IMG/VR virus record: IMGVR_UViG_3300021401_000010
Location: 1 to 47,755 of that record
Origin: a virus
Reading direction: 5' to 3' (one strand)
Length of the DNA stretch: 47,755 bases
This document shows positions 30,169 to 47,755 of this stretch, piece by piece. The position numbers and the translations under genes are program-made. The number at the start of each line of letters is the position of its first letter. The first letter of the stretch is position 1. Below the pieces are notes generated by a model. It searched no databases. It had not been told where the DNA came from and was given only the letters and a program-made list of their open reading frames with translations.

Positions 30169-30240
30169 GTGTCGTAAGGTGCCACGCCAGCCCTGCCCAT
30201 CCACGTCGCTTGCCAGCACCGTCGAAACCTTGGCACCCCC

Positions 30241-32979: not shown

Positions 32980-33126
32980 GCTCTTAAGTTGTTCAGTAGA
33001 GAGTACTCAAGATACCCAAGCTCGAATTTTGAGCAGGCGGCCACTCTGCACTTGACACGCAGGTTGTGTTTAAAACACGCGCTCTGGATAAAGCGTTGTC
33101 CACGTTGGAGCAACGCGCGTGAGAGG

Positions 33127-33156
33127 AGTATAGTGCTCAGGGGCGAGTGTTGTACA
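33127..33156 (-). promoter_or_regulatory. Leftward promoter of the conserved TGTACA-18-TATACT type
   Basis: On the minus strand AATTGTGTACAACA contains TGTACA (33156-33151), then 18 bases, then TATACT (33132-33127). The TTGTGTACAACA core is identical to the rightward copy near 36035, and the spacing is the same. An AT-rich stretch lies upstream. Transcription would start near 33120 and run into the terminase and structural genes. Confidence 0.55.
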
Positions 33157-33183
33157 CAATTATTTTCACCTTCCGGCCAAAAG

Positions 33184-33515
33184 TGTGCAAAACTCTGCAC
33201 AGTACAAAAGTACCGTGATTTTTGTCCAGTGAACAAAAGGTGAACAAAAGTTTCGTCCTGTACGAAACTTGACGAAACTCACGAAACTTTTGCACTTAAG
33301 TCCTTTGTTTTCAACAATCATCTAGTTTCGTCGTTATCTGGTTTTATCTCTTAATTACCCCTAACCTATTCATTCTGCATATAGTTACGGAGTTTCGCTA
33401 GATGAAATTTCACTTATTCTGGACAGGTTGGAGGCGCGGAGCCACGCCACCAAGAGCGTGGTCTCCGCCCCCTGTTTCGTTTTTCGTTTACTAAAGCCCT
33501 TCGAAACACGAAACT
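33184..33515. repeat. Divergent intergenic region with iteron-like CGAAACT repeats, candidate origin
   Basis: The non-coding stretch 32980-33875 contains eight copies of CGAAAC or its complement. They lie at 33249-33256 (AGTTTCGT), 33262-33269, 33272-33279 and 33281-33288 (three ACGAAACT in a row at about 10-base steps), 33324-33331, 33391-33398, 33473-33480 and 33502-33515 (two). Also present are a perfect tandem GTGAACAAAAG (33229-33239, 33240-33250), the inverted pair TGTGCA/TGCACA (33184-33201) and GTACAAAAGTAC (33202-33213). It lies between divergent blocks and next to the primase-helicase gene. Such a layout fits an origin or a multi-site operator. Confidence 0.55.
33436..33468. repeat. 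GC-rich inverted repeat (hairpin) in the divergent region
   Basis: The arms GCGGAGCCACGC (33436-33447) and GCGTGGTCTCCGC (33456-33468) pair with one extra T, around the loop CACCAAGA. It stands out in an AT-rich region. It has no T run on either strand, so a simple terminator is less likely than a structural element for replication or control. Confidence 0.5.
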
Positions 33516-33875
33516 TTTGCGCAACAGTGCACATATGAAAGGGTTTAGGCTCATTTCTACAATTTCGTAGGCCAAATATATAGTTTATTGGGTTAACTTT
33601 ATTCTCTAACTTGTTCATTTTAGTATACTTATTCTAATAATGCACCACTTTTAGTGCACTTATCATTTTGATGTTTACAGCATCACTTTTCGCTTGATAC
33701 ACTCAAATTAACCGCGCTGATCCCGTGGCCGACCTTCTCAGGTCCTCTTGCTCGCACACGAAAACCTAGCTTGCCTGGCGGGTTCCCCACCCATCAGGCA
33801 AGCTTTAAGGGTTTTTGGAAAGAAGAGGAAAAAGGTCCGTGTGTGTTTGGTTTTTCTTGCAAGAGAGAAGAGGAC
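33516..33875. other. Non-coding upstream region of the primase-helicase gene
   Basis: About 360 bases without a convincing gene. The stretch is AT-rich to about 33710, with a TATACT at 33624-33629 and the inverted pair TGCAC/GTGCA around 33642-33660. I found no clear -35 partner. The ribosome binding region AGAAGAGGAC lies directly before the ATG at 33876. An open frame from 33771 is in phase with the primase but has no start signals. Confidence 0.4.
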
Positions 33876-35753
33876 ATGGACTCCTTTGACCCCGTCGCAA
33901 CCCTGTATGCCCTATTTTCCGGCTCTGAGCTTTCATTTGCCACCTTTGACCCCTCTGAAAGAGACCCTGAGAGCGGCAAGCTTGGCGGCAAGTATACGAC
34001 TCACGAGCGGGCGGCGGGCCTTAAAGACATCGAGAACCACCTCGAGGGCAAGCTTGGCGCGGTAATCGTTCCCCTGCATCAAGACGGTACCTGCAGCTTT
34101 GGCGTCATCGACGTTGACCCAAAAAACTACACAAATGCCGCGGATAGCATCTTAGAGCTCAGGAATCGAATCTTCCTTGAAAAGAAGTATCCCCTGCATT
34201 ACTTCCAAAGCAAGAGCGGCGGCGCCCACTTTGTCTTATTTCTAGACCAGCCCCGCCCCGCACCCGTGGTGCGAGGCCTGCTCCATCGCTACATAGACGA
34301 GCTTGGTCTTAAGGCCGAGGTCTTTCCCAAGCAAGATCAGATGCCAGAAAGTGGAAAGGCCAGCTGCGTTAACCTGCCCTACTTCAAAGATCCTGACGGG
34401 TTCAAGGCCTGGTGGTCTAATTATAGACAGACAAGCACGGCGGAGATCGAGGCGGAGCTTGCCAAGCAACCAGCGCTGGAGGTAAGACCACATATAAGGT
34501 CCCTTCCCAAGATCGTCAAAAATATTAGTTTTAGGGCGGAACTAGAGCGTGTGGGCCTTGAGTACGTTGCAAGGGAGACTGAATACGGAACCCAATATTG
34601 TTACCATGGCCTGGTCAATAAGACAGGAAAAATCCAGGGGTGCCTGCTCAAGGGTGACGTGCACCATCAAAAGACAAATGTTCGACAAAGTCAGTTTGTC
34701 GAGACTAAAAACGGAGAGATATTTCACCGATGCTTTGCTGACGAGTGCCGTAATATTGAAGAAAATAAAACTAGATTAGCGTTAAAGTCACTTGGCCTTG
34801 AGGGCCGGATTCTTGGTGTAACTGACGGTTCTGATTGGCGTGAGTTCGTTCAAACATTTGGCCAGCTGTCTTCAGAGCTGCCGCGGTTCCTGGTTGATGG
34901 CCTTATCCCCGAGAAGGCATTTACGATGGTCGTCGCCTCTGCCTTTAATGGTAAGACATTTTTCGCGCTGCAATGCGCCCTAGCAATCGCGAGAGGAGAG
35001 CCCATATGGGGGTTTGATGGGCCTTCTGAACCTCGGCCCGTTATCTATCATGTGCCAGAAATGAACGCGAATTCGGTGCGGAGATACGCCGCCCTGCTGG
35101 GTTACACCGACAATGACCAGGTGTTCTTTAGGACGATGGAATCAGAGAAGTGGGAGATCAATAGCGCTAGGATGCTGTGCTCAGCCAACAACGCGGTGGT
35201 TGTCTTAGATACGGTCGGCTACTTTAACCCCGCTAAAGACACCCATGCTTACGAGCAAAGCATTGAGTTTGCCACTCTGATCTACAACCTGTTGAATCAG
35301 GGGGCACTCGGGGTAATCGGTCTATATCACGTTCCTAAATCAAACAAAGATACGGGGTGGACCCTTGAGAACTCAGTGCTAGGGTCGACCGGCTACGGTG
35401 GGATCTTAAGAAGTTGCCTGCGACTTAAAAATCTTAACGTTGACCTAAATGACGATGATATACACCTCTATGTCCAGGGCATGAAGAATCCGGGGCTTAA
35501 GCCGTTTCAGTTGGAAGGTGTCCCATTGCAGATGAGGGTTCCGCCAGGTGAGAGCCCGTATCTTAATCAGATCGCGGTAAGCGGCAAGGAAAACAAGAAG
35601 TATACGCAAGCTTGTCAGCTATTTAGAGAAAACACGGAAATGAAACATTCTGAAATTGCGAAGTTGGTTCAAGTGTCCCCGACGACGATAAGTCATTACT
35701 TTAAGAAGTACAAGGGACAAGAGGAATTAAATTTGAGTGATGAGAATCTATGA
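33876..35753 (+). CDS. Primase-helicase: AEP (TOTE-like) primase, RecA-fold ATPase and C-terminal HTH
   Basis: This is a 625-residue protein from the ATG at 33876 (MDSFDPVATLYALFSGSELS). Residues 60-170 carry archaeo-eukaryotic primase motifs: the DxD in FGVIDVDPKNY (76-84), FQSKSGGAHFVLFLD (110-124) and AEVFPKQDQ then CVNLPYF (147-170), as in TOTE-type primases. Residues about 240-295 have paired Cys/His (CYHGL, GCLLKG, HRCFADEC), a possible zinc site. From 340, a RecA-like helicase follows with a Walker A variant VASAFNGKTF (352-361) and Walker B NNAVVVLDTVGYF. The end (about 590-615) is a helix-turn-helix, HSEIAKLVQVSPTTISHYFK. It probably primes and unwinds phage DNA; the HTH could bind the adjacent repeats. 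Confidence 0.8.
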   Translation: MDSFDPVATLYALFSGSELSFATFDPSERDPESGKLGGKYTTHERAAGLKDIENHLEGKLGAVIVPLHQDGTCSFGVIDVDPKNYTNAADSILELRNRIFLEKKYPLHYFQSKSGGAHFVLFLDQPRPAPVVRGLLHRYIDELGLKAEVFPKQDQMPESGKASCVNLPYFKDPDGFKAWWSNYRQTSTAEIEAELAKQPALEVRPHIRSLPKIVKNISFRAELERVGLEYVARETEYGTQYCYHGLVNKTGKIQGCLLKGDVHHQKTNVRQSQFVETKNGEIFHRCFADECRNIEENKTRLALKSLGLEGRILGVTDGSDWREFVQTFGQLSSELPRFLVDGLIPEKAFTMVVASAFNGKTFFALQCALAIARGEPIWGFDGPSEPRPVIYHVPEMNANSVRRYAALLGYTDNDQVFFRTMESEKWEINSARMLCSANNAVVVLDTVGYFNPAKDTHAYEQSIEFATLIYNLLNQGALGVIGLYHVPKSNKDTGWTLENSVLGSTGYGGILRSCLRLKNLNVDLNDDDIHLYVQGMKNPGLKPFQLEGVPLQMRVPPGESPYLNQIAVSGKENKKYTQACQLFRENTEMKHSEIAKLVQVSPTTISHYFKKYKGQEELNLSDENL

Positions 35754-36028
35754 TGAGCGAAGAACTTGAAAAAGAAGGTTCAGTTGCAGATGAGTTAGCA
35801 AGAGAATCTTATGGGTATGCGGGCGACATGCTGGCGAGAAGTGAAATACGTCAGCTTGTAAGCGAATCAAAAGAAATAAACAAGTTATGTTTATTTATTT
35901 CTATGAATACGTTAGATCGCCTTGACGCCGCGCAACAAGCGTTAAAGAGAGGGATCTACATTGGCCTCCGCTTGAGAGACGACTTTACAAAAGAAGACTT
36001 TGGCTATAAGTACAAAGAAAATAAATAA
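35750..36028 (+). CDS. Hypothetical helical protein
   Basis: This is a 92-residue protein starting in ATGA overlap with the primase-helicase stop: MMSEELEKEGSVADELARES. It is charged and helical (EIRQLVSESKEINKLCLFIS, LDRLDAAQQALKRGIYIGLR). The TAA stop lies inside the 27-base promoter-like sequence at 36017-36043. Coupling to the helicase gene suggests a replication accessory role. No family recognised. Confidence 0.5.
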   Translation: MMSEELEKEGSVADELARESYGYAGDMLARSEIRQLVSESKEINKLCLFISMNTLDRLDAAQQALKRGIYIGLRLRDDFTKEDFGYKYKENK

Positions 36029-36067
36029 ATATTTTTGTGTACAACATCCTCCCCTTAGGCTTATAGT
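36017..36067 (+). promoter_or_regulatory. Rightward promoter, copy 1 of a conserved family
   Basis: A 27-base AT-rich sequence (36017-36043) ends in TTTTTGTGTACA and is identical to 46208-46234. TGTACA (36038-36043) is followed by 18 bases and TATAGT (36062-36067). The predicted start is near 36074, one base before the ATG at 36075. The stop codon of the preceding gene (36026-36028) is part of the sequence. Confidence 0.6.
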
Positions 36068-36074
36068 TGCTCTC

Positions 36075-36482
36075 ATGTTCGAAGCCCCTCCAGAGTATCT
36101 CGGCCCCGGTGACGGGTTGGTCCATCGCGTGCCGCCTGGCGACGCCTTACACGCCCACGACCAGCGTGGCGGCGTCTACCCCTATGAGGTCACCGTCTGG
36201 CCGATGGAGCGGCACCACTACCGCCTGACCACGGGGCGAGAGTATTCTCACCTTGGGGAACCAGCCGAGGTCAGTTTAACGGCGACCGAAAGGCAGATTT
36301 GTGCAATTCTTGGGCTCAGGGAGTGGGAGCTGAGCACGTTCCTGCGGGAGTGGACGCCGCTGCCGGGGGAGACCAACCGTAAAAAGCCAGAGACGCTTGA
36401 AGACATCCGCCGGCGGCTTATTTTTGCGGAGAAGGTTTCTCTACGTTATAAACCAGGTCGTCCTCGCAAGGAGGACCTATGA
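36075..36482 (+). CDS. Hypothetical protein, probably from a leaderless message
   Basis: This is a 135-residue protein starting MFEAPPEYLGPGDGLVHRVP at 36075. It has a His/Asp/Gly-rich first part (PPGDALHAHDQRGGVYPYEV) and a C-terminal helical part (LTATERQICAILGLREWELS, then TLEDIRRRLIFAEKVSLRY) that may be a small DNA-binding fold. There is no ribosome binding site. The ATG falls at the predicted transcription start of the promoter just upstream, so translation may be leaderless. No family recognised. Confidence 0.55.
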   Translation: MFEAPPEYLGPGDGLVHRVPPGDALHAHDQRGGVYPYEVTVWPMERHHYRLTTGREYSHLGEPAEVSLTATERQICAILGLREWELSTFLREWTPLPGETNRKKPETLEDIRRRLIFAEKVSLRYKPGRPRKEDL

Positions 36483-36733
36483 CCTTGCAGTCCCTAGCCG
36501 AGGCCGGCTACTCATCGATTAAGCTGCCTGAGTGGTCTTCATCACAGTACCTGCAGCTATCTTTGATCTATCGGCTAGGTGGTTTCGGTTTCGGGAACTG
36601 GGTGGACGTTTATGGTTTTAGTCCTGAACCGATTCGCTGCCCGGTGTACATTTTCGAGGTTGAGGATAATGAGAGGTGGGAACCAACTCCCGATCCACTG
36701 AACGAGTATAGTCCGCAAAGTGAGAGGCAATAG
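36479..36733 (+). CDS. Hypothetical protein
   Basis: This is an 84-residue protein beginning MTLQSLAEAGYSSIKLPEWS, with the start in ATGA overlap and an excellent AGGAGGACCT site. It is rich in aromatic and Gly residues (LIYRLGGFGFGNWVDVYGFS) and ends with an acidic, Pro-rich tail (TPDPLNEYSPQSE). No family recognised. Confidence 0.5.
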   Translation: MTLQSLAEAGYSSIKLPEWSSSQYLQLSLIYRLGGFGFGNWVDVYGFSPEPIRCPVYIFEVEDNERWEPTPDPLNEYSPQSERQ

Positions 36734-36737
36734 CGAA

Positions 36738-37256
36738 GTGGCTAACTACGACATCTCGAACATCACCAAGATGCTCCTTGACTTCACATTGCCGGGACGG
36801 GCCGAGGTGGTCATGGAGGTCGGCGAGCTGATCCGCAATACCAGTCGAATCTACCAGCTAGTCGTGGAGATCGATAAAGAGGCAAGAGCGCAAGGGCTCG
36901 ACAAGAAGCCGTTCGATATTCTGAAGATCGCACTGTGCTACGGCGCGACGATCGGGATCTTCATGGAGCAGGAAATTCAGCATTACTTCGCATTGACCGG
37001 CAAGAGTGAGTACAGCATGGATTACGTGGTGCGCGAGTTCCTGCGCGATGGCTGCCCTGACCAGGCTTCAGTCATGGCCGAGGTGGCCGCTGAGTTTCGC
37101 GTTCAACCTTGCGTCTACCACCTTGTTTCGACGGTTGCTGAGGAGGTGACGAAGCAGCAGGCGAACCCGTACCAGTCGGTGCTCATTGCCTTGTTGTACG
37201 GCTGTGTTTTGGGGATCTTCTTGGAGAAAGAACGTAGTAAGAAGCTGGTGAACTGA
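36738..37256 (+). CDS. Hypothetical protein made of two tandem copies of a helical domain
   Basis: This is a 172-residue product from a GTG at 36738 (MANYDISNITKMLLDFTLPG); a GTG at 36720 is an alternative. The two halves align: VVMEVGELIRNTSRIYQLVV with FDILKIALCYGATIGIFMEQ, and SVMAEVAAEFRVQPCVYHLV with SVLIALLYGCVLGIFLEKER. Each unit of about 65 residues has a charged helix and then a hydrophobic helix with the pattern ALxYGxxxGIFxE. This is an internal duplication. The hydrophobic helices may be buried or membrane-touching. Its ATG-proximal neighbours are unknown small genes. Confidence 0.55.
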   Translation: MANYDISNITKMLLDFTLPGRAEVVMEVGELIRNTSRIYQLVVEIDKEARAQGLDKKPFDILKIALCYGATIGIFMEQEIQHYFALTGKSEYSMDYVVREFLRDGCPDQASVMAEVAAEFRVQPCVYHLVSTVAEEVTKQQANPYQSVLIALLYGCVLGIFLEKERSKKLVN

Positions 37257-38824
37257 TGACTAATAAATCTGATGCGGCATCAAGTACTCAACCACGATTC
37301 TGTATAACCTGCGGAGTGCGCGAGGACGCCACGTCGCCTAACGCATTGTGCGTGGGGCCTAACTGGTCAAGCTCATCGCATGACTTTCGTGCGGCATCCC
37401 CTACTCAACTAACGATGGACGACGCACGGCTGTTTATGGCCGGATGGAAGTCCATGAATGCTGCGAAGTATCACACGATTTGCGGCTCTGGATCAACATC
37501 GGCGTGTCTACAATTCGCCGCAGACTTTGCAGCGCACGCGGCAGCCTCCCCTACTGAGGAACGATCCGCGCAACGTTGCAAGACGTGTGGCAAGATAGAA
37601 CACGATCACTATTGCTTCTTTGGCGGCCCGCAGACAACCACTTATTTTCCAGTCACGCGCCGGGAGGAACGACCCGCAGCAGCGCCGCAGGAACTTTGCC
37701 CAAGTTGCGGAAGTCAAATCCGGGAGATGCGTCTGTGCCTGCAATGCGGAACTGGGCACACTATGGATTTACTCAGCAATCGCGGACACGCTAAAAAAGC
37801 CTGTCCCGACAAGTGGCATGAAAAGGAACCCAATGAAAACCTGCCCGCAATGCGACAGCAACATGCCGACTTATCCGATGCTGGTCAGCCATCAACCGAA
37901 AGGCCTGTGCGCGGACGATTTTCATCGCCCGTTTCTCAACATGCTGCACCCAACTCTGTGGACGGTGCTGAAGTATTGGTGGCAAACCAAATAACCCCCG
38001 AGTCGAGCTTGGAACCAGAGCTGGAGGAACAGTGCTCTTGCGGACTACCAGCCGACCCCGTGGAAACTGATCGATTGGAACCAGAGCCGATATGTAAGCA
38101 CGATAATCAAAGTGGCCATCCTGCGGAGCCGGACATTCGCATGTGTCACGACTGCAATATGCGAAGCGTGGACGGTGGGATAACTTGGATGACTGCTGCC
38201 GAGTATCAAAAGCAGTGTTTGGGACCAGAGCTATCCTCGCGCGAACCGCAATGGGCTGACTGTCCGCGATGCCGCCAAAAAGTACTAGCCCCGCATGAGT
38301 GCTATGAATCAGTGTTGAATGAGGCAGGTGAGCGCGAGGCCGCAAGCACAATTCAGGAATCATGGGTTGCGTTCCTACTGGAGCATCCCACGCGAGGCGG
38401 ACTCGTTGAACGACTAATTTTTGATTCAGGATACCGGGCAGGCGCTGCCTCCAACCTGGAAATCAACGACAATAGCGGCTGGGAGTACGACCCGGACGCG
38501 GCGCTGAGGCGAGTGCGCGCCCGAGTAGCGACTGGGAAGGTTCAATTGTTCGATAAGTTGAAAGCGGACAATCTGCAAGCTATGGCGGAACACTTCGCAG
38601 AACGAAATGCCGAGCTGGAGTCCGCGCTGGCCGCTTCCCAGGCTGAGGCGAAAGAACTGAAGCAGGCGCTGCAAATTCTCAATGGGCACGTAATTGGCAC
38701 GCGCTGCTATCTCGCTACCTGCGCCACCGACGTGATTGTCCATAACCTTGAGGTGACTATCGCAGGCTTGCGGCGAGAATCTGAGTTGGCTGAGTCTGTG
38801 CTTAAGCGATGGGAGGGGAAATGA
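37256..38824 (+). CDS. Multi-zinc-ribbon protein with C-terminal coiled coil
   Basis: This is a 522-residue protein starting MTNKSDAASSTQPRFCITCG. Repeated CxxC pairs occur (FCITCG, RCKTCGKIEHDHYC, LCPSCGSQ, LCLQCGTGH, CSCGLP, CHDCNM, CPRCRQKV), suggesting several zinc ribbons separated by variable linkers. The end is a coiled coil (NAELESALAASQAEAKELKQ). The middle (about 37830-37990) is low complexity in this frame, while the +1 frame there reads a plausible small zinc protein, so a frame conflict or overlapping gene is possible. It looks like a patchwork; function unknown. Confidence 0.5.
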   Translation: MTNKSDAASSTQPRFCITCGVREDATSPNALCVGPNWSSSSHDFRAASPTQLTMDDARLFMAGWKSMNAAKYHTICGSGSTSACLQFAADFAAHAAASPTEERSAQRCKTCGKIEHDHYCFFGGPQTTTYFPVTRREERPAAAPQELCPSCGSQIREMRLCLQCGTGHTMDLLSNRGHAKKACPDKWHEKEPNENLPAMRQQHADLSDAGQPSTERPVRGRFSSPVSQHAAPNSVDGAEVLVANQITPESSLEPELEEQCSCGLPADPVETDRLEPEPICKHDNQSGHPAEPDIRMCHDCNMRSVDGGITWMTAAEYQKQCLGPELSSREPQWADCPRCRQKVLAPHECYESVLNEAGEREAASTIQESWVAFLLEHPTRGGLVERLIFDSGYRAGAASNLEINDNSGWEYDPDAALRRVRARVATGKVQLFDKLKADNLQAMAEHFAERNAELESALAASQAEAKELKQALQILNGHVIGTRCYLATCATDVIVHNLEVTIAGLRRESELAESVLKRWEGK

Positions 38825-39438
38825 AACGGTTCTACGTGGCTCTACCTCTGCTAGCCCTGCTGGGAGGCACGGTCTGTTTCGCGCAGATGCCCTGCAACAC
38901 TGTGGATTGCGACAACGCGAACGGTAATCCCAAACTGTGCACGGTCGAGTATGACGAGCCGGATGGGCCGTGCCCGCCCCCTAAAGCTGTGGTTTCTGTT
39001 ACCCCCGCACCAGCCAAGACCACGATGACCATGAACGCCATGCCCGTTACGATCATCGGCGGCAATGGGGCGGCGACTGGCTCGGAGACGGATGCTCTCG
39101 TCGCGGCGTTACACCCGCTGAGCATCGGCGAGACAACCATAGTGAGCAACAAGCTGTCGTTCATCGGTGGTCGCGTGGATTTCACAATCAAGCCGATTTC
39201 TACTTGGATTCAGAATCACAGTTCGGTCGATGGCTACAAGTTCGAGATGGGGCCGACGTTTAGCTTTGGCGGCGTAAAGGCCAACAGCAAGTTCTATTAT
39301 GGGCAGCGGGCGGGAGTGTTTATCAACTACAAATTGGCGTGGGCCGTGGGAATGCAGTTCGAGATTCAGTGGAACAACTTTCCCGGCTACGCACACAACG
39401 TCCCGAGTTTCAGTTTCGGCCCGAATTGTCACTGGTAG
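38821..39438 (+). CDS. Exported protein of unknown function
   Basis: This is a 205-residue protein starting in ATGA overlap: MKRFYVALPLLALLGGTVCF, a Sec signal peptide cut probably after CFAQ. The mature N-terminus has Cys pairs (MPCNTVDCDNANGNPKLCTV). The C-terminal 110 residues alternate hydrophobic and polar residues with many aromatics (KFEMGPTFSFGGVKANSKFY, then YKLAWAVGMQFEIQWNNF), which resembles an outer-membrane beta barrel fragment or a beta sandwich. It is paired with a lipoprotein gene 11 bases downstream. It may alter the host envelope, but this is inferred. Confidence 0.55.
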   Translation: MKRFYVALPLLALLGGTVCFAQMPCNTVDCDNANGNPKLCTVEYDEPDGPCPPPKAVVSVTPAPAKTTMTMNAMPVTIIGGNGAATGSETDALVAALHPLSIGETTIVSNKLSFIGGRVDFTIKPISTWIQNHSSVDGYKFEMGPTFSFGGVKANSKFYYGQRAGVFINYKLAWAVGMQFEIQWNNFPGYAHNVPSFSFGPNCHW

Positions 39439-39449
39439 GAGGACGAACT

Positions 39450-39701
39450 ATGAAACGACTCGCATTTCTTGGCTTATTGGCCCTGCTGGGCTGCGGACCC
39501 AGGCACGCTCCGCTGAGCGTAACGAGGTCCGCGTGCCTCCAGGCTCACTATTCTCTGCTCACCGGAGATGAGGAGATACTAGACAGGCTGGGGTACTGTG
39601 GCCCGAATCGCGGCGTGATCGTCGTAGGCGCTACGCATTGCTATTCAGACCACGTGCTGGACCAGGCATACCCCCAGCCCGACCTGCGGTGCCTGCCGTG
39701 A
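39450..39701 (+). CDS. Small lipoprotein
   Basis: This is an 83-residue protein from the ATG at 39450 with a strong AGGAGGACGAACT site. The N-terminus MKRLAFLGLLALLGCGPRHA has a lipobox (LLGC), so Cys15 would be lipid-modified. The mature region (PLSVTRSACLQAHYSLLTGD, then RLGYCGPNRGVIVVGATHCY) has three more Cys. Phage lipoproteins often act in superinfection exclusion or as outer spanins. No partner is evident next to it. The stop forms GTGA with the next gene. Confidence 0.6.
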   Translation: MKRLAFLGLLALLGCGPRHAPLSVTRSACLQAHYSLLTGDEEILDRLGYCGPNRGVIVVGATHCYSDHVLDQAYPQPDLRCLP

Positions 39702-40303
39702 CCCTCCGTGAGGAGATGCGCCTGCTGCGCCGGGCCGTGCTGGCGAAGGCCGTGGCCGAGGCGGGGGGCAACCTGAGCCTGGCGGCGCGGCGGCTGGACG
39801 TGCACCGCAACACGCTGGGGCGGCTGTGCGAGGCCGCGGGCGTGGACTACCCCGCCCACCGCGGTGGCGCCCGCAAGGGAGTGGAGTACAGGAGGGAAAG
39901 AACGCTTATGAACCTGGAAGAACGGGCAACACCGGCAAGGCAACGCCTGCCCCCCACGCGGGCGGGCGCGACGCACAAGTTTACCGTGGGCGGGGTGCGC
40001 GGGTACGTGACGGTGAACGAGTACGAGGACGGCAGGCCGGGCGAGCTGTTCCTGCGGCTGGACAAGGTGGGCAGCGCCACGCGCGGCTGGACGGACGCGT
40101 TCTCGATCGCATTTTCGATGCTATTACAGGGAGGAGCCTCTCTTAAGGGGTTAATAGATAAGTTTCGTGCTACTCGATTTGAACCGGCTGGGGTGACCGG
40201 GAATCCAGAGATCGGAATATGTACGTCAGTACTTGACTATGTGATGAGATGGCTAGAATTAAGATACTTAAAGGAGAAGACTAATGGTGCTCAAAAAGCC
40301 TAA
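39698..40303 (+). CDS. Fis-type HTH fused to a TSCPD domain
   Basis: This is a 201-residue protein from a GTG in GTGA overlap. Residues 4-50 form a Fis/NtrC-type helix-turn-helix: REEMRLLRRAVLAKAVAEAG then GNLSLAARRLDVHRNTLGRL. Residues 85-190 match the TSCPD domain found at the C-terminus of class II ribonucleotide reductases and as stand-alone phage proteins: TVGGVRGYVTVNEYEDGRPG, ELFLRLDKVGSATRGWTDAF and GICTSVLDYVMRWLELRYL. A strong AGGAGGG precedes the internal ATG at 39908, so a shorter TSCPD-only protein may also be made. No reductase gene is visible. Its role may be DNA binding linked to nucleotide metabolism, inferred. Confidence 0.65.
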   Translation: MTLREEMRLLRRAVLAKAVAEAGGNLSLAARRLDVHRNTLGRLCEAAGVDYPAHRGGARKGVEYRRERTLMNLEERATPARQRLPPTRAGATHKFTVGGVRGYVTVNEYEDGRPGELFLRLDKVGSATRGWTDAFSIAFSMLLQGGASLKGLIDKFRATRFEPAGVTGNPEIGICTSVLDYVMRWLELRYLKEKTNGAQKA

Positions 40304-40907
40304 AACACTACTGGCCAGCCAGGAGTCCGTCGAGGAGTGCAAGCGGCGGCTGGACAAGGTGGAGGCCCGGGGCCTGGAGTTCTTGTTCCTCGACCGCAGC
40401 GACGAGGCCACGCGGCTGCTGGGCAACTTCGTCTTTGACCATGCGCCGGTGCCGCCGTCAGCGCAGGACAACAGCTTTAGCAACTGGCTGCTGGTCTCGG
40501 CGCTGTGCGTGACGGTGATGGCGGGCGGGCTGCTGTTCAGGAGCCTAGAGACGAGCCTGGCCGACCTGGGCAAGCGAGTGGCCGCGCAGGAGGCGCGTGC
40601 GTTCGCGCCGACCGCCCCCGCGGTGGCGATGGACACAGCCATACCGAACATAGCTCATATCCCGGACATCTTCCTCGACCTGGATCAGCGCTGCTGGCTT
40701 CAAATTACGGACGGCGGCGGCAAAGTGCTAATGGCGGACTTCGTGCCCGCTGGCCGCCGCGAGGCCGCGCCGGGGGCAAAGCTGCCAATTACCGTCCGCG
40801 ACGGCTGCCCGGGCCACGTGGCCTTCACGGTGGACGGCAGGGCGGTGGATCCGCCCCGCGAGCCGGGGCACGCGGAGAATAAGGTGGAAGTGGTGGTGCT
40901 GCCGTGA
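40284..40907 (+). CDS. Single-pass membrane protein with RodZ-C-terminal-like domain (DUF4115)
   Basis: This is a 207-residue protein. Residues 1-60 are cytoplasmic and helical (ESVEECKRRLDKVEARGLEF). Residues about 67-85 are a membrane segment (NWLLVSALCVTVMAGGLLFR). A periplasmic linker (SLETSLADLGKRVAAQEARA) and a beta domain with CWLQITDGGGKVLMADFVPA, REAAPGAKLPITVRDGCPGH and VAFTVDGRAVDPP follow. That domain matches the C-terminal domain of the bacterial cell-shape protein RodZ. The gene overlaps the previous one by 20 bases and has an AAGGAG site. It may act on host envelope assembly, which is inferred. Confidence 0.6.
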   Translation: MVLKKPKTLLASQESVEECKRRLDKVEARGLEFLFLDRSDEATRLLGNFVFDHAPVPPSAQDNSFSNWLLVSALCVTVMAGGLLFRSLETSLADLGKRVAAQEARAFAPTAPAVAMDTAIPNIAHIPDIFLDLDQRCWLQITDGGGKVLMADFVPAGRREAAPGAKLPITVRDGCPGHVAFTVDGRAVDPPREPGHAENKVEVVVLP

Positions 40908-41203
40908 AGAGTGCCCTACTGATGGCAATACTGCAGCTGGCAGCCAACGGCGCCGACACCTACGCCACGGACCGCAACATGCACCGGCAGCATTTCGTGG
41001 AGTTTGATCCGGCGGCGAGGCCATTTGTGCACGACCGCGCTACTTTAATCTCGGCGAATGCGTTGCAGGCCGCAGGTACGATCTTGCTGGAACGAAGGTT
41101 AAGGCGGCAAGGTAAGGTTCGATGGGCGCGGGCACTGGAGTTGGCGGCAATCGGCGGCCACACCTATGGGGCGACCATTAGCCGCGGGGAGGTGAGGCAG
41201 TGA
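40904..41203 (+). CDS. Hypothetical protein with hydrophobic helices
   Basis: This is a 99-residue protein from a GTG in GTGA overlap: MKSALLMAILQLAANGADTY, ATDRNMHRQHFVEFDPAARP. It has an N-terminal hydrophobic helix (signal-like) and a later SANALQAAGTILLERRLRRQ and RWARALELAAIGGHTYGATI. The arrangement resembles small phage membrane-associated proteins. No family named. It ends in GTGA with the next small gene. Confidence 0.5.
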   Translation: MKSALLMAILQLAANGADTYATDRNMHRQHFVEFDPAARPFVHDRATLISANALQAAGTILLERRLRRQGKVRWARALELAAIGGHTYGATISRGEVRQ

Positions 41204-41328
41204 TCGGTCTTATTCTTTGTATCTTGTTGGCTTTAGTAGAGCTGTTTTGGGGATACGAACTCAGCGCTTTATTTTGTCTTCTTTGCGGCTTGATTTGTGC
41301 TGCAAACGAGAAAAGAGGTTGGAGGTGA
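41200..41328 (+). CDS. Very small two-segment membrane protein
   Basis: This is a 42-residue protein from a GTG in GTGA overlap: MIGLILCILLALVELFWGYE, LSALFCLLCGLICAANEKRG, WR. Two hydrophobic segments joined by a short turn, followed by a basic tail. Both ends are coupled to neighbours, which supports it despite its size. Could be a holin, antiholin or other small membrane factor. Confidence 0.45.
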   Translation: MIGLILCILLALVELFWGYELSALFCLLCGLICAANEKRGWR

Positions 41329-41471
41329 GCCCCAACTGGCGCCACGGAATCCAGGGTGGCCTTATGGGAACTATGCTTTGTTTATGCGGCCTATATGCAA
41401 CCACCTGGCGATTTTGGGTGATTTTCCTGACGGCCATGGCAATCCAGATTTGGGAGAAGGAAGCAAAATAA
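41325..41471 (+). CDS. Very small membrane protein
   Basis: This is a 48-residue protein from a GTG in GTGA overlap with a GGAGG site upstream: MSPNWRHGIQGGLMGTMLCL, CGLYATTWRFWVIFLTAMAI, QIWEKEAK. Two hydrophobic segments are seen. The stop lies inside the next promoter-like sequence. Function unknown; with the previous gene it forms a pair of tiny membrane proteins. Confidence 0.45.
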   Translation: MSPNWRHGIQGGLMGTMLCLCGLYATTWRFWVIFLTAMAIQIWEKEAK

Positions 41472-41508
41472 ATTTTTGTTTACAACACCATCTCAATAGT
41501 ATTAGGAT
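41468..41508 (+). promoter_or_regulatory. Rightward promoter, diverged copy of the conserved family
   Basis: AATAAATTTTTGTTTACAACA resembles the other copies. TTTACA (41479-41484) is followed by 18 bases and a weak -10, TAGGAT (41503-41508). The ATG at 41516 is 31 bases after the ACA, exactly as in the copy at 36017. The stop of the preceding gene (41469-41471) is inside it. The -10 is poor, and an AGGA near 41504 could instead be a ribosome binding site. Confidence 0.4.
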
Positions 41509-41515
41509 TAAATCT

Positions 41516-41767
41516 ATGAACCTGAAAGAACGCCTGAAGAGAGTGAACCCAAGCTATCCTCCCGTCATCTTCATCTGTAAGCTCGAGGACGTGTTAAAAG
41601 AGCAGCTTGGCGACGAGTATGACCCAGCAAAGGTCGCGAGGGCCATGGGATTGACGCCGATCACCATGGCCGCAATTTTGCGAGGCTGCACGGTGAAGCT
41701 TGAGAACGCGTTAAGACTCGCTGAGATGGTGAAGGTGCCGGTGGCGGAGTTGTGGAGACTGAAGTGA
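41516..41767 (+). CDS. Cro/C1-like HTH regulator
   Basis: This is an 83-residue protein: MNLKERLKRVNPSYPPVIFI, CKLEDVLKEQLGDEYDPAKV. Residues 38-80 form a helix-turn-helix of the XRE type: ARAMGLTPITMAAILRGCTV then LENALRLAEMVKVPVAELW. It lies directly after a promoter-like copy and before the helicase gene. It probably binds DNA as a repressor or activator and could act on the repeated promoter family or the CGAAACT sites. The start is the ATG at the predicted transcription start. Confidence 0.7.
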   Translation: MNLKERLKRVNPSYPPVIFICKLEDVLKEQLGDEYDPAKVARAMGLTPITMAAILRGCTVKLENALRLAEMVKVPVAELWRLK

Positions 41768-43266
41768 TTGACCTCTCCAAAGCCACGATACCACCATTCC
41801 CGCACCAAGTGCTGGATGCTGAGCGAATGTTTCAGCAGCCGTTTCTGCTGAACTTCTCAGAGATGGGAAGTGGGAAATCGGCCTCTGTTGTGCATGCCGC
41901 CTGCGCCCTGTACGAGGCTGGGCTGATCAGGACGGTGATCGTGGCGGCACCGGCGCAGTGCACCTCAGTCTGGCACAGCAAAGAGCTTGGGGAGATCCAG
42001 AAGCACGCCTGGCAGTTGTCGCTGGTGCACCGATACCATGGTGGGTCGAAGCGAATTCGGCTTGACTCGGGACTTTTGAATTGGATTGTGGTTTCTTACG
42101 AATTTCTTCGTCAGTCATCGGCACTTCGAATCTTGATCGAGGCAACCCGCCAAACGAGAGCCATGTTGGTAATGGACGAGAGCATCTTCCTGAAAAGTCC
42201 GAAGGCGGTGCAGACAAAGAGTCTGTTGGAGCTGAGTCACGAGTGCGATCGCAGATACGCGCTGAACGGTACGCCGCATGGGGGCAGACTAGAAGAGACA
42301 TACAGCCAGTTCCGCCTGGTGGACCAAAGGATCCTGGGCTGCGACAGCTTCTACCACTTCCGGGCGAGGTACTGCGTGCTGGGCGGCTTTCAACGACGAC
42401 AGGTGGTGAAGTATAAGAACGAGACTGACTACTTTCGCAGAACGAAACCATACGTGATAAGACGGCTGAAGTCCGAGCTGCTGGACTTGCCGCCGAAGCT
42501 GTACACGCACCTGACAGTGCCGCTTTCGTCGGAATCGTGGCTGCGGTACAAGCAGATGCGAGACGACCTGGCAGCTTGGCTTCATTCTGGGTTAAGCGCC
42601 ACGAGCCACGCGCCGGTGCGGATAATAAGATTATCACAGCTGACTTCAGGTTTCTTGGGGGGTCTTAAAGAAGTGGACCCTGAGGAGTTTCAGTTGTATG
42701 GGATGGAGATGCCGGTTGCCTCAACGTCAGGAGAGGCAAGAACAGAAGTATGCAGCGACGAGAAACTGAGGTGCACGCTTAACTGGCTTTCTGAACGACT
42801 TGAGGCTGATTCGTCGTTCAGATGCCTCATATGGTGCAGGTTCAGGTTGGACGTGGCACGACTTCAAAAAGAAATTATGGCTCGGTTCCCAGTGCCTGTG
42901 TTTACCATTATCGGCGGCCAGGGCTCGATGGAGCGGCACGCCGCAAAGGTTGAGGGGGAGACTGGGTCAGGGGCCGCGATTTTGCTTGGCAATCAACATG
43001 CGGGCGGCTTCGGATTGACGCTGACCAGCTTTAACCAGGTGTTTTACTACTCCTCGGACTACTCGCTGCTGGCTCGGATGCAGTCCGAGGATCGCTGCCA
43101 CCGGCCCTCGGCGAGGGGGCCGCACATCCTCTATACCGATTTGATCGCTACCGGGCCAAATGGCGAGAAGACGGTTGACGGCGTCGTCTTGGAGGCATTG
43201 CAGCGAAAGGAAGACCTGCTGAGCTGGAGCTCGGCGAAGTGGGAGTCAGCAATTTTAGCGGAGTGA
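41764..43266 (+). CDS. SNF2-like superfamily II helicase
   Basis: This is a 500-residue protein from a GTG in GTGA overlap (MIDLSKATIPPFPHQVLDAE); an in-frame GTG at 41752 would add four residues. Motif I is FSEMGSGKSASVV (31-43), motif II the DExx-type LVMDESIFLKSP, motif III ALNGTPHGG, and the C-lobe has AILLGNQHAGGFGLTLTSFN, then QVFYYSSDYSLLARMQSEDR (motifs V-VI). It matches DEAD/SNF2-like helicases common in phage replication modules. It uses ATP to move on or remodel DNA. There is no nuclease or methylase partner here, so replication or recombination is more likely than defence. Confidence 0.85.
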   Translation: MIDLSKATIPPFPHQVLDAERMFQQPFLLNFSEMGSGKSASVVHAACALYEAGLIRTVIVAAPAQCTSVWHSKELGEIQKHAWQLSLVHRYHGGSKRIRLDSGLLNWIVVSYEFLRQSSALRILIEATRQTRAMLVMDESIFLKSPKAVQTKSLLELSHECDRRYALNGTPHGGRLEETYSQFRLVDQRILGCDSFYHFRARYCVLGGFQRRQVVKYKNETDYFRRTKPYVIRRLKSELLDLPPKLYTHLTVPLSSESWLRYKQMRDDLAAWLHSGLSATSHAPVRIIRLSQLTSGFLGGLKEVDPEEFQLYGMEMPVASTSGEARTEVCSDEKLRCTLNWLSERLEADSSFRCLIWCRFRLDVARLQKEIMARFPVPVFTIIGGQGSMERHAAKVEGETGSGAAILLGNQHAGGFGLTLTSFNQVFYYSSDYSLLARMQSEDRCHRPSARGPHILYTDLIATGPNGEKTVDGVVLEALQRKEDLLSWSSAKWESAILAE

Positions 43267-43270
43267 ACTT

Positions 43271-43468
43271 ATGAAGCTTGGTCAAGAAACTGGCGGAGAT
43301 AATAATAGCCGAGTGAATGAGGCTCGTGCCATCGTCGGGATGCTTGAGGACCGGATGGAGCAGCTGAACCCAACCGAGGCGAGCTTCGTGGAGCGGATGG
43401 CCGAGGCCGACTTTGTGAGCAGGAAACAAATCTTCTGGCTCAGAGATATTAAAGAGAAATACTTATGA
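43271..43468 (+). CDS. Small hypothetical helical protein
   Basis: This is a 65-residue protein: MKLGQETGGDNNSRVNEARA, IVGMLEDRMEQLNPTEASFV. It ends FVSRKQIFWLRDIKEKYL, a segment of the form LSxKQxxWLxxI that is common near the end of phage recombination and replication proteins. A GGAGTGAACTT site precedes the ATG. No family recognised. Confidence 0.5.
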   Translation: MKLGQETGGDNNSRVNEARAIVGMLEDRMEQLNPTEASFVERMAEADFVSRKQIFWLRDIKEKYL

Positions 43469-43755
43469 ATGGCCCATATTCAATCGGAGCAGACAAGTGG
43501 AATGGCCTCTCTAAGCTAATCGAGGAGTGTGGAGAGGTAATCCAGGTTGCCGGCAAGATCATTGGCGCAAGCGGGGCCGAGGAGCACTGGGACGGCTCGA
43601 ACCTGCCACAGCGTCTGCTTGAGGAGCTCGGCGACTTGCAGGCGGCGATTTTCTTCATTACAGCGCACTACGACCATACCCTAGCCTGCGCGAAAGTAAG
43701 GGTTCGGGCCATTGAAAAGTTTACAAAGTTCGAAGAGTGGAATGAGGATAAATGA
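43465..43755 (+). CDS. MazG-like nucleotide pyrophosphohydrolase
   Basis: This is a 96-residue protein with the metal-binding signature of MazG-like/all-alpha NTP pyrophosphatases: Glu20, Glu21 and Glu24 in LSKLIEECGEVIQVAGKIIG, and Glu53/Glu54 with Asp57 in QRLLEELGDLQAAIFFI. Length and order fit phage MazG-like proteins. It hydrolyses nucleoside triphosphates and may shape the nucleotide pool or alarmone level. It starts in ATGA overlap with the previous gene and ends in ATGA overlap with the next. Confidence 0.8.
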   Translation: MNGPYSIGADKWNGLSKLIEECGEVIQVAGKIIGASGAEEHWDGSNLPQRLLEELGDLQAAIFFITAHYDHTLACAKVRVRAIEKFTKFEEWNEDK

Positions 43756-44237
43756 GCCCCGTCACGAAAGAACAAAAAAAGCAGTTCTCTAAGTTCGCCC
43801 AAGAGCCTCTGTACCAGGAAAAAGTGGAGGCCATCAAGGCACTTCTCACCGAGTTGAATAAGGTCCAGCTGGCTGAGACCCTTGTCCAGTTCAAGGAGGA
43901 GAAGGATGCCCTTGAGGAACAGACCTACGACCTGAACGTGAAGCTCGAGGCGGTCATGCAGCTCCTCAACGATCTGCTGGAGGACGAGGGAATCACGTCT
44001 TTCAACCTTAAGGATGGCCGCTGTGTTTACCAGCAGTCGGACGTTTACGTGAAGGTGGAGAACCGCGAGGACTTCCACACCTGGTTAAGAACTCAGGAAG
44101 ACGGAGAAAGCTTTTTCAGCGTTAATTACCAGACCTGTGCCGCCCTCACAAAGTCAAGGATCGAACAAGGGGAGACGATTCCCCCAGGGTTAAACGTGTT
44201 TATCAAACAGCTTGTCAAGACAAGAAAAGGAAATTAA
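43752..44237 (+). CDS. Hypothetical coiled-coil replication-region protein
   Basis: This is a 161-residue protein. Residues 1-75 are a coiled coil (KVEAIKALLTELNKVQLAET, then LVQFKEEKDALEEQTYDLNV). The remainder is a small alpha-beta domain (LEDEGITSFNLKDGRCVYQQ, then DVYVKVENREDFHTWLRTQE, ending IPPGLNVFIKQLVKTRKGN). Proteins with this layout occur beside ssDNA-binding or recombination genes in phages, from memory. No motif points to a reaction. Confidence 0.55.
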   Translation: MSPVTKEQKKQFSKFAQEPLYQEKVEAIKALLTELNKVQLAETLVQFKEEKDALEEQTYDLNVKLEAVMQLLNDLLEDEGITSFNLKDGRCVYQQSDVYVKVENREDFHTWLRTQEDGESFFSVNYQTCAALTKSRIEQGETIPPGLNVFIKQLVKTRKGN

Positions 44238-44263
44238 CCGCCGCTTAGTGTTAAGGAGAAAAT

Positions 44264-45031
44264 ATGCCAAAGAAAGAAGATGGTCTCGTTGTCGCGCCGC
44301 CCACAGGCCTTACCAAGAAAGAACAACTGCCCGACTACATCCCAGTCGGCGATCAAAGCGGCATGGAGGACGTTTCTCAACAGGACGTTGCCATGCCACG
44401 CGTCGGGCTCTGTCAGTCGGGAACGCCAGAGCGCAAGAAGAACGACCCCAAGTACATCGAGGGCCTGGACGAGGGGATCTTTTTCAATACCACCACCAAA
44501 GAAATTTATGGGGACCGCATCCGGGTGATCCCAATTCGGTTCTTTAAGACCCGTTTGAAGTTTTTTCCGCTTGACGACGGCGGGGGCATCGACTGTCAGA
44601 GCCTGAATGGCATTGACGGCGGCCACTACTCTGCCACCTGCGCGCAGTGCCCGCACAGCAAGTTTACGGACGGTGAGCATCCAAGCTGCTTCGAGATCCA
44701 CAACCGCGTCTGCCTGATCCTGCCGTCGGGGGATGTTGCCGCAGTCAGCATGAAGTCGACGGCAATCCCAGTGTCCAAGCAGTGGTCCGCCATCGCGAAG
44801 ATGCGGAACGCGCCTCTCTTCAGCGCGATCTACGAGTTGAAGTCGACGCCGGCCGTGCGCGGCGGCAACAACTTCTACACCTACACGCAGCGCATGGTGC
44901 AGAACTGCTCGGCGGACGACTTCAAATACGCCCGGCAGCTGTATGAGTCGATCAGCAGCAAGACGATCATTGTAGACCAGGAGTCGCCGGTGGTTGAGGC
45001 CGATACTTCCTTCGACGCGCCAGCGATGTGA
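44264..45031 (+). CDS. Probable ssDNA-binding or recombination-associated protein
   Basis: This is a 255-residue protein. The pattern QQDVAMPRVGLCQSGTPE, then DRIRVIPIRFFKTRLKFFPL, then CAQCPHSKFTDGEHPSCFE and LILPSGDVAAVSMKSTAIPV is that of a large phage family usually placed next to helicases and MazG-like genes. CxxC plus a later Cys suggests a zinc site. The C-terminal tail is acidic (QESPVVEADTSFDAPAM), as in ssDNA-binding proteins. The function is inferred from pattern, tail and neighbours. A good AAGGAGAAAAT site precedes the ATG. Confidence 0.5.
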   Translation: MPKKEDGLVVAPPTGLTKKEQLPDYIPVGDQSGMEDVSQQDVAMPRVGLCQSGTPERKKNDPKYIEGLDEGIFFNTTTKEIYGDRIRVIPIRFFKTRLKFFPLDDGGGIDCQSLNGIDGGHYSATCAQCPHSKFTDGEHPSCFEIHNRVCLILPSGDVAAVSMKSTAIPVSKQWSAIAKMRNAPLFSAIYELKSTPAVRGGNNFYTYTQRMVQNCSADDFKYARQLYESISSKTIIVDQESPVVEADTSFDAPAM

Positions 45032-45222
45032 AAGTTCTCGGCGAGCTCGAGGTTCGGTGCGCAAGCCACGCAACCACCTTCATTGAGGGTTGCGCGGCTT
45101 GCCTTTTTCTTAATCAACTCGAGGGTAATCTTCTGAGACTCAAGGAACAAAGATTGAAGCTGGTTGCCGAACTTGAGAAAAGACTACTGGACAAGTCAGT
45201 GATTGCGCAGAGGATAAAATGA
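45028..45222 (+). CDS. Small Cys/His protein with coiled coil
   Basis: This is a 64-residue protein from a GTG in GTGA overlap: MKVLGELEVRCASHATTFIE, GCAACLFLNQLEGNLLRLKE. C-x2-H and CAAC make a possible zinc site. The second half is a helix (QRLKLVAELEKRLLDKSVIA). It ends in ATGA with the phosphatase gene. Function unknown. Confidence 0.5.
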   Translation: MKVLGELEVRCASHATTFIEGCAACLFLNQLEGNLLRLKEQRLKLVAELEKRLLDKSVIAQRIK

Positions 45223-45644
45223 TCCAACAAGTTGAAGGGAACGTTTATCGGGGTCCGCGACCTCAGCCGCCTTATATCGGAATACGCGAGCTGTTCGCGC
45301 GCGTGATCAGCCTGGAGGGTCTGGCAGAGGACATCAAGGAGCAGCGCGAGTTGAGCCCTGTATGGGTGCTTTCCGAGCCCATCACGTTCTCGCAGATCTA
45401 CTTTACTGGCATCTCGCAGGCGAAGCTGGACTTGATCATAAAGAAGATCGAGACGGCAGCCACGTGGGGCAAGGTGCTGGTGCACTGCGAGCACGGCGAG
45501 GACCGCACGGGGCTGGCCATCGCCGCGTGGCGGGTGCGCGCTTGCAAGTGGACCAAGGAGGCCGCCATGGCCGAGGCGCTGGACCATGGCTACCGGCGGT
45601 GGCTGAACTTCGGGCTGAATAAGACCTGGGCGGCGTTCCAGTGA
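45219..45644 (+). CDS. CX5R protein phosphatase (dual-specificity type)
   Basis: This is a 141-residue protein. The phosphatase loop is HCEHGEDRTG (residues 89-98) with Cys90 and Arg96, preceded by GKVLVHC and followed by LAIAAWRVRACKWTKEAAMA. This is the cysteine-dependent dual-specificity phosphatase pattern. The N-terminus (MIQQVEGNVYRGPRPQPPYI) matches the entry VYRSxxP motif of small phosphatases. It removes phosphate from proteins, RNA 5' ends or small molecules; the substrate cannot be told. Host-phage signalling or nucleic acid end processing are options. Confidence 0.75.
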   Translation: MIQQVEGNVYRGPRPQPPYIGIRELFARVISLEGLAEDIKEQRELSPVWVLSEPITFSQIYFTGISQAKLDLIIKKIETAATWGKVLVHCEHGEDRTGLAIAAWRVRACKWTKEAAMAEALDHGYRRWLNFGLNKTWAAFQ

Positions 45645-45940
45645 ACCGGCGTGCTTTTCTATCTAGTCTCATCGGCGGTGTGGCTGCCTCCGCCGCGGTG
45701 CGCACGTTCCCGTTCCGTGTGTACAGCTTCGCCAGCGAGATCGTGGTAGTCAACACTCCAGGCATGGCTTTTTTTGCTGCCGAATTGGAGAAATTGGCCT
45801 GGCAACCGCACATACCTCTATCAGCCCTGACGTGGACGCGAGATATACTGGACGTTGAAAATAAGATTATCGGCAAGGCGCAAATTAAGCGCTGGCCCGA
45901 CGGCGGCGCCATGGCCTCCATCTTCGGGGTGGAAGAATGA
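45641..45940 (+). CDS. Small protein with Tat-like leader
   Basis: This is a 99-residue protein from a GTG in GTGA overlap: MNRRAFLSSLIGGVAASAAV, RTFPFRVYSFASEIVVVNTP. The NRRAFL motif and a following hydrophobic stretch are a twin-arginine-type leader, although the Ala and Gly region is short and lacks a clear AxA cleavage site. The remainder (GMAFFAAELEKLAWQPHIPL) is a small domain. Similar short Tat-like proteins occur in other phages, from memory. Export of a folded factor is possible. Confidence 0.5.
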   Translation: MNRRAFLSSLIGGVAASAAVRTFPFRVYSFASEIVVVNTPGMAFFAAELEKLAWQPHIPLSALTWTRDILDVENKIIGKAQIKRWPDGGAMASIFGVEE

Positions 45941-46215
45941 GGTGCGAGGTTGTAATAAAGACTCGGAAACTCGTCACCGCGGAGGGCACTCCCCGAGAGG
46001 TTCACCTGAAGTGCGGCCGCCCAGCCCGCGAGTTCGTGATCACCCGGCGGAATGGCCTTACACAAGCACGAGCAATTATGTGCCTGTGCCACGCTTCACG
46101 GCTCGGGGACAAGTGGCTGGTGTTCACGGCGTCTTACTGGGAGGTCCGTTCCGCCGTTAACCAGATAGTTACCGAGGAACATGACCAGTGGTCACTTTCG
46201 GCCCCCCGAAAATAA
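45937..46215 (+). CDS. Small Cys-containing protein
   Basis: This is a 92-residue protein in ATGA overlap: MRCEVVIKTRKLVTAEGTPR, EVHLKCGRPAREFVITRRNG. Cys residues at 3, 26 and in IMCLCHAS form a possible metal site. The stop codon is inside the promoter-like sequence at 46208-46234. No family recognised. Confidence 0.5.
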   Translation: MRCEVVIKTRKLVTAEGTPREVHLKCGRPAREFVITRRNGLTQARAIMCLCHASRLGDKWLVFTASYWEVRSAVNQIVTEEHDQWSLSAPRK

Positions 46216-46257
46216 ATAAATATTTTTGTGTACATGGATCAGGTCTTGCAGTATACT
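46208..46257 (+). promoter_or_regulatory. Rightward promoter, copy 3 of the conserved family
   Basis: The 27 bases 46208-46234 are identical to 36017-36043. TGTACA (46229-46234) is followed by 17 bases and TATACT (46252-46257). Transcription would start near 46264, leaving a 50-base leader with a GGAGACAAG site before the ATG at 46315. It overlaps the stop codon of the preceding gene (46213-46215). Confidence 0.6.
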
Positions 46258-46314
46258 TATTTCAGCACGAAACATACGGCGTTCCAGAGACGCCGAGATT
46301 GAAAAGGAGACAAG

Positions 46315-46689
46315 ATGAAAACTCAACAGTTTATGTTCGACGTGCTGGACGACGAAAAAGAAGCTCTCAGCGACATAGCCATGATGGAAGAAACCGTCCA
46401 CTGCAACCGCTGCGGCAAAGAACAATCCTTCGCATCCGCCGGCTGTTCTCATGCTTCTTGCGGCGGAATCTTCGTGACCGGGAGCATTCTCACTTTCAAA
46501 GATGTCATCGATGCCCGCATCGAAGCTTATTTTCTGCTGAAGCAGAAAAGAGATGAGCTGGTCGATGAGCCTTGTAATGAAGATTGCCAGCACCAAGAAG
46601 GTTTCACCATCCTGACTCATGCCGCCCGATATATCGAGAAAAATCGAGCAAAGTTAGCAGAGGAGCACTCTTCTTTGAAAGAGTGCTAA
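46315..46689 (+). CDS. Hypothetical zinc-ribbon protein
   Basis: This is a 124-residue protein: MKTQQFMFDVLDDEKEALSD, then HCNRCGKEQSFASAGCSHAS then CGG, a zinc-ribbon-like Cys array, and a helical C-terminus (KDVIDARIEAYFLLKQKRDE, then ARYIEKNRAKLAEEHSSLKE). It is the first gene after promoter copy 3, with a good AAGGAGACAAG site. Unknown function, perhaps an early host-control protein. Confidence 0.5.
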   Translation: MKTQQFMFDVLDDEKEALSDIAMMEETVHCNRCGKEQSFASAGCSHASCGGIFVTGSILTFKDVIDARIEAYFLLKQKRDELVDEPCNEDCQHQEGFTILTHAARYIEKNRAKLAEEHSSLKEC

Positions 46690-46713
46690 TGCCCCGGAAT
46701 CCAAAGGATTCCG
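46664..46713 (+). terminator. Two adjacent hairpins after the 46.3 kb gene
   Basis: Hairpin one is AGCACTCTT (46664-46672), loop CTTTGA, AAGAGTGCT (46679-46687); it spans the stop codon region. Hairpin two is CGGAATCC (46695-46702), loop AAA, GGATTCCG (46706-46713). Neither has a U run, so this may be a processing or stability element rather than a true terminator. Confidence 0.4.
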
Positions 46714-46750
46714 CTGGTTCCAAGGCCAGAGCGGCTACAAGGAGACCACC

Positions 46751-46948
46751 ATGATCCACATCACCGTCAACGGGAAGGCTCCCGAGACCTATGTCCCAAA
46801 ACAAAAGCAAGAGATGACCGAGGAAGAACACCAGCAGCGCATCGTCCGGAGCGTAAACCGCTGGACGGGCAACAAAGTGCGGAATCATTCAGGCGCACGC
46901 AGCGGTCGGGTGCGCATCGTGTTCCACCAGGGGGTGGGCAATGCCTAA
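46751..46948 (+). CDS. Small hypothetical protein
   Basis: This is a 65-residue protein with a CAAGGAGACCACC start region: MIHITVNGKAPETYVPKQKQ, EMTEEEHQQRIVRSVNRWTG. A short beta N-terminus, a charged middle and a basic C-terminus (NHSGARSGRVRIVFHQGVGN). No family recognised. It overlaps the next gene by 8 bases. Confidence 0.45.
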   Translation: MIHITVNGKAPETYVPKQKQEMTEEEHQQRIVRSVNRWTGNKVRNHSGARSGRVRIVFHQGVGNA

Positions 46949-47131
46949 CTTCCTGCGCAGGGCGCTGTGGGACCGCCTGCAAAGCCTTCAGTGCGATCTT
47001 GCTTTTTTATCAGGCAGCATTTTGAAGGACATCCAAGAGGCCGAGGTTATAAACCTCAGCGAATTTATCACTAGATTTGAGACCCTCGAGGCTGAGGTAA
47101 AGCTCCAGGAGATGAGACTGAGGAGGATACT

Positions 47132-47135
<4 letters not shown>
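46941..47135 (+). CDS. Small hypothetical helical protein
   Basis: This is a 64-residue protein: MPNFLRRALWDRLQSLQCDL, AFLSGSILKDIQEAEVINLS. It is mostly helical, ending in a coiled-coil-like stretch (RFETLEAEVKLQEMRLRRIL). It overlaps the next gene as ATGA. Unknown function. Confidence 0.45.

Positions 47136-47755
<620 letters not shown>

Follow-up and report, generated by a model that had tools for sequence, protein, structure and literature searches.

The question raised by this stretch of DNA is whether a short sequence that recurs where genes end represents a family of promoters and, if so, which polymerase would read them and how the transcripts would be translated. The analysed window is the complete IMG/VR record IMGVR_UViG_3300021401_000010, 47,755 bases from an uncultured phage. 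Structural and packaging genes occupy the minus strand in the left part, and the plus strand of the right part carries a replication gene, a helicase, a Pam3 gp34-like protein and many small genes without relatives. The landmarks of the two arms are the following:

26451-27968, minus strand: portal, left arm
30584-32134, minus strand: large terminase, left arm
33876-35753, plus strand: primase (AEP-TOTE) and AAA ATPase replication gene, behind promoter D
41764-43266, plus strand: SNF2-type helicase, behind promoter B
44264-45031, plus strand: Pam3 gp34-like protein, right arm

A permuted (two-piece) tmRNA gene adjoins the terminase gene (30088-30312, minus strand; Rfam RF04321, 85.3 bits); its ARAGORN tag is ASANKTAKVIAFPASASMAFAAAA, and a scan of 33 other loci found no tmRNA. 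Two-piece tmRNAs are already known on phages, mostly marine or aquatic (PMC9004378). The portal relatives found in genomes (74 loci, with 28 viral loci besides) are mostly from Proteobacteria and, together with the permuted tmRNA, they allow a guess at a proteobacterial host.

The initial annotation had described a 27-base sequence, GAAAATAAATAAATATTTTTGTGTACA, in identical copies at 36017-36043 and 46208-46234, with a diverged copy carrying TTTACA at 41468-41484. All three were recovered as described, and two copies absent from that annotation, D and E, were found in addition. The 27-mer is the longest exact repeat of the window, barring a long CTG-type simple repeat of TGCTGCTGATGCTG at the end of the record (47596-47755) and a 29-bp direct repeat at 15161 and 16304, within a 1171-aa gene (13633-17148, minus strand). 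The five predicted promoters are:

36017-36067, plus strand: promoter A, with an AT-rich UP-like block, TGTGTACA; -35 TGTACA at 36038-36043, spacer 18, -10 TATAGT at 36062-36067
41465-41508, plus strand: promoter B, TTTTTGTTTACAACA; -35 TTTACA at 41479-41484, spacer 18, -10 TAGGAT at 41503-41508
46208-46257, plus strand: promoter C, sharing the 27-mer with A; -35 TGTACA at 46229-46234, spacer 17, -10 TATACT at 46252-46257
33662-33703, plus strand: promoter D, TGTTTACAGCATC; -35 TTTACA at 33674-33679, spacer 18, -10 TACACT at 33698-33703
33127-33173, minus strand: promoter E, AAAATAATTGTGTACAACAC; -35 TGTACA at 33156-33151, spacer 18, -10 TATACT at 33132-33127

In all five, TGTKTACA is followed at 17-18 nt by a -10, and the general layout of the block is a T/A-rich stretch, TTGTKTACAACA, 18 nt and TATANT. 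The extended -35 reads GTTTAC in B and D and GTGTAC in A, C and E, so that every copy has a T where the sigma70 consensus TTGACA has a G. Each copy matches the sigma70 hexamers at 9 of 12 positions with a spacer of 17-18, counted against a consensus from which that of the host may differ; the -10s of B and D match at only four of six. The A+T content of the 20 nt upstream is 95% in A and C, 75% in B, 65% in D and 60% in E. As had been annotated, A, B and C contain the stop codon of the preceding gene (36026-36028, 41469-41471 and 46213-46215, respectively). The offset of that stop codon differs between the identical copies A and C, so that the A/T-rich AAATAAATAA happens to supply a stop codon in two frames. 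On the plus strand a second TATAGT (36713-36722) is found 7 nt upstream of the GTG with which gene 36720 starts, with a weak Shine-Dalgarno and without the -35 block; it is possibly there by chance.

The octamer TGTKTACA occurs eight times in the window, and five of these occurrences have a -10-like hexamer (A at position 2, T at position 6, at least four of six matches) at 17-18 nt; the other three are bare copies, all inside genes. It is hardly credible that the family consists of chance A/T-rich matches at gene ends. Sites of sigma70 type do arise randomly, and a loose, motif-blind sigma70 scan of 32600-47755 (15 kb) returned eight sites, all five copies included, which is not above the 7.2 expected by chance. 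However, across 1000 local dinucleotide shuffles the octamer with a -10 appeared 0.048 times on average and never more than twice, against the five copies observed; chance is thereby ruled out for the family taken together, although D by itself scores close to background. In leave-one-out matrix scans each left-out copy came fifth or better among 95,416 positions and outscored every non-site, the weakest being D, with 16.5 bits against 14.5 for the best non-site. A full-window matrix scan found no sixth copy, the five scoring 31-41 bits and the next position 13.7; this matrix was built from the five copies themselves, and only the score gap is informative. The repeated promoter family proposed in the initial annotation is thus supported by the shuffles, the sigma70 scan and the leave-one-out scans: it is real, and ordinary in kind.

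With regard to genomic position, the family is present at the heads of both genome arms and of each separate right-arm block. Promoter D heads the replication gene, E points into the packaging and structural arm on the opposite strand, and A, B and C fill three of the five gaps of at least 40 nt in the right arm. The copies had been regarded as early promoters, a label that the orientation of E leaves unsupported; since the family heads both arms, "early" is dropped from the reading, as far as the sequence tells. Between the divergent D and E, at 33200-33530, there are repeats of CACGAAACTTTTGC and its complement, with GTGAACAAAAG twice in tandem, and these are possible replication origin or regulator sites.

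The genes behind A and B raise the question of leaderless translation, which the initial annotation had suggested:

36075-36482, plus strand: 135-aa ORF, candidate leaderless gene; its ATG lies 7 nt past the -10 of promoter A and lacks a Shine-Dalgarno, and no relatives were found
41516-41767, plus strand: 83-aa helix-turn-helix-like protein, with its ATG 7 nt past the -10 of promoter B

The distance from ACA to ATG is exactly 31 nt in both A (ATG 36075) and B (ATG 41516), as had been noted, and both fit a leaderless geometry, with the -10 ending 5-8 nt before the start codon. C, D and E do not fit it and, because of where their ATGs lie, cannot be leaderless: the ATG next to C (46315) has an AAGGAG Shine-Dalgarno and a predicted leader of about 51 nt, and the predicted leaders are about 166 nt for D (ATG 33876) and about 141 nt for E (first ATG 32979). 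The D leader contains a strong hairpin (AGCTTGCCTGGCGGGT/ACCCATCAGGCAAGCT) followed by the T-rich TTTAAGGGTTTTT (33768-33804, plus strand; region z-score -3.0), which could be an attenuator or terminator-like.

For A, the sequence makes a leaderless start plausible. Most genes of the window have a Shine-Dalgarno, and the A gene has none (-2.4 kcal/mol). Most other genes with a weak Shine-Dalgarno overlap the gene upstream and may be coupled to it in translation, whereas the A gene lies 46 nt past its neighbour. Since the -10 is 7 nt upstream and there is no Shine-Dalgarno, transcription at A probably starts at the ATG or within 1-2 nt of it, and the gene would probably be translated leaderless from promoter A. 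The case of B is ambiguous. An AGGA 8 nt before its ATG (-4.0 kcal/mol) could act as a Shine-Dalgarno; it overlaps the -10 TAGGAT, so a transcript starting at B would be without it and a readthrough transcript would carry it. The B gene is perhaps read both ways, leaderless from B or via the AGGA on readthrough RNA. Its only relative, in L003, encodes a 47% identical protein upstream of the same helicase and has its ATG at almost the same residue, which supports the start of the B protein; in L003 itself this gene is preceded by an ordinary leader with GGAG, and the motif is absent. A tRNA with anticodon CTA, called tRNA-Pyl, is predicted at L003 3215-3289, and UAG may be read as an amino acid in L003.

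The five sites are probably strong promoters for the host housekeeping (sigma70-type) RNA polymerase, with a design like that of T4 early promoters. One promoter would serve each transcription block: E packaging and structure, D replication, A accessory genes, B the helix-turn-helix protein and helicase, and C the terminal small genes. RNA polymerase would contact the UP-like A/T-rich stretch, which is strongest in A and C, through its alpha subunits; sigma region 4 would bind the extended -35 GTKTACA and sigma region 2 the -10 that follows at 17-18 nt. Where genes are packed this tightly, the A/T-rich block also provides the codon that ends the upstream gene. Since host sigma70 RNA polymerase uses this layout and the block recurs widely among unrelated phages, no private regulator is needed. 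Of the proposal that the promoters are phage-specific and share their control, what stands is the common upstream block and -35; the phage-specific part sits poorly with a host-type layout and with the wide distribution of the block.

Alternatively, the shared block could be an operator at which a DNA-binding protein of the phage acts, such as an autoregulating 83-aa helix-turn-helix protein behind B, so that one repressor or activator acts on all five units through a TTGTKTACAA dyad overlapping the -35. This seems unlikely. In three copies (A, B and E) the TTGT-KT-ACAA dyad is a perfect 4+4, promoter B is followed first by a helix-turn-helix-like gene, and the T in place of the consensus G is kept in five of the five -35s. 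However, C (ACAT) and D (ATGT..ACAG) lack an unbroken dyad, though their -35 core is retained; TTGTNNACAA is thus intact in three of the five copies, and not in all of them as in a repressor operator family, and an operator on its own was rejected as the main explanation. Moreover, the block never occurs apart from a -10 at 17-18 nt, save for the three bare intragenic octamers, a -35 bearing this dyad recurs in numerous unrelated phages and in T4, and the L003 record, with its relative of the helix-turn-helix protein, has no such sites. Less probable still is an arrangement in which one phage regulator, perhaps the 83-aa protein, would bind the dyad at all five promoters and tie both arms together, the leaderless A and B constituting a separate translation mode late in infection. 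A somewhat better, if still doubtful, alternative is that A and C stem from a recent duplication of a promoter cassette travelling with a block of accessory genes, a mobile promoter rather than a family under selection. A and C are identical over exactly 27 bp, a match that breaks off sharply after the -35, and hardly any relatives were found for the genes that separate A from B; yet the core is common to B, D and E without long identity, and the -10 spacing is kept in all five copies. Selection on promoter function is therefore needed in any case, and a duplication of A and C is compatible with the sigma70-promoter explanation and not opposed to it.

Conservation of the sites was sought among relatives of the phage. 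The right arm has no near match in phage or plasmid records, and neither the replication protein, the helix-turn-helix protein nor the A gene has close relatives in IMG/VR or phage records, L003 being the only relative of the B gene; its record lacks the motif. The nearest relatives, L203 and L204, have portals 66-69% identical, and only their structural genes are covered. The 28 viral and 74 genome loci found through the portal yielded no convincing copies of the motif and two weak matches in L223; they mostly cover structural genes, and absence there is weak evidence. A terminase search in genome contigs found nothing.

The five predicted units under one promoter design provide a compact transcription map of an uncultured phage. 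Furthermore, the recurrence of the T4-early extended -35 (GTKTACA) in many unrelated phages at a fixed -10 spacing is a useful promoter-prediction rule for metagenomic phages. If the leaderless starts at A and B are true, they offer a simple test of a standard promoter combined with leaderless initiation where the intergenic space is about 45 nt.

The copies belong to an already known kind of promoter, that of T4 early genes. The T4 early consensus has GTTTAC at -36 to -31 and an A-rich UP-like region at -40 to -44 (PMC1524935), and these promoters have been described as UP/-35/TGn/-10 promoters (PMC2988021). A 35-kb stretch of T4, scanned under the same rule for GTTTAC with a -10 of at least five of six matches, has nine such sites along the gene strand against one along the opposite strand. 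No fewer than three of the nine (L363 30360, 29968 and 10974) start directly at, or overlap, the codon that terminates the gene before them; a promoter that sits on a stop codon is therefore nothing unusual in a compact phage genome. Both families have the GTKTAC(A) extended -35, the -10 at 17-18 nt and several copies that head transcription blocks and often abut the preceding stop codon, and in the present family the A/T-rich upstream stretch of T4 is matched to a varying degree, more weakly in D and E; the comparison with T4 covers the promoters. The family described here differs from that of T4 in having G or T at -34, a poorer match of some -10s, mostly no TG extended -10 and only five copies, one of which (E) faces the structural arm, so that it is not confined to early genes.

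Beyond T4, a scan of IMG/VR for TTGTKTACAACAY and TATANT at 18-nt spacing found 47 stretches, against 10 when the spacing was shifted by 6 nt; their sources are unrelated A/T-rich phages, and most of the 47 precede a gene start, often with a Shine-Dalgarno. Three near-identical TTGTGTACAACATTCTAGGACCGGTGTATAAT occur in a 154-kb phage, 3300044475_000188 (L232, L239 and L246), with no obvious gene start behind them. Two of the IMG/VR matches, L231 and L233, share the leaderless geometry: in both, the ATG comes 6 nt past the -10, and a Shine-Dalgarno is missing. The lambda cI transcript from PRM is leaderless, its -10 adjoining the ORF. Among bacteria, leaderless transcripts with a -10 adjoining the ORF are found in Deinococcus-Thermus (PMC12340547), and promoter A resembles them in having a -10 a few nucleotides before the ATG and no Shine-Dalgarno; in contrast to those transcripts, the starts of the window are mostly of Shine-Dalgarno type, A and B have a full -35, and the geometry is known here from sequence. 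In Halovirus HF2, as proposed here, a repeated intergenic viral sequence serves as the promoter of successive units, although in that virus the promoters are archaeal, the repeats are longer (29 and 58 bp) and their function was shown by reporter assays (PMC8707807).
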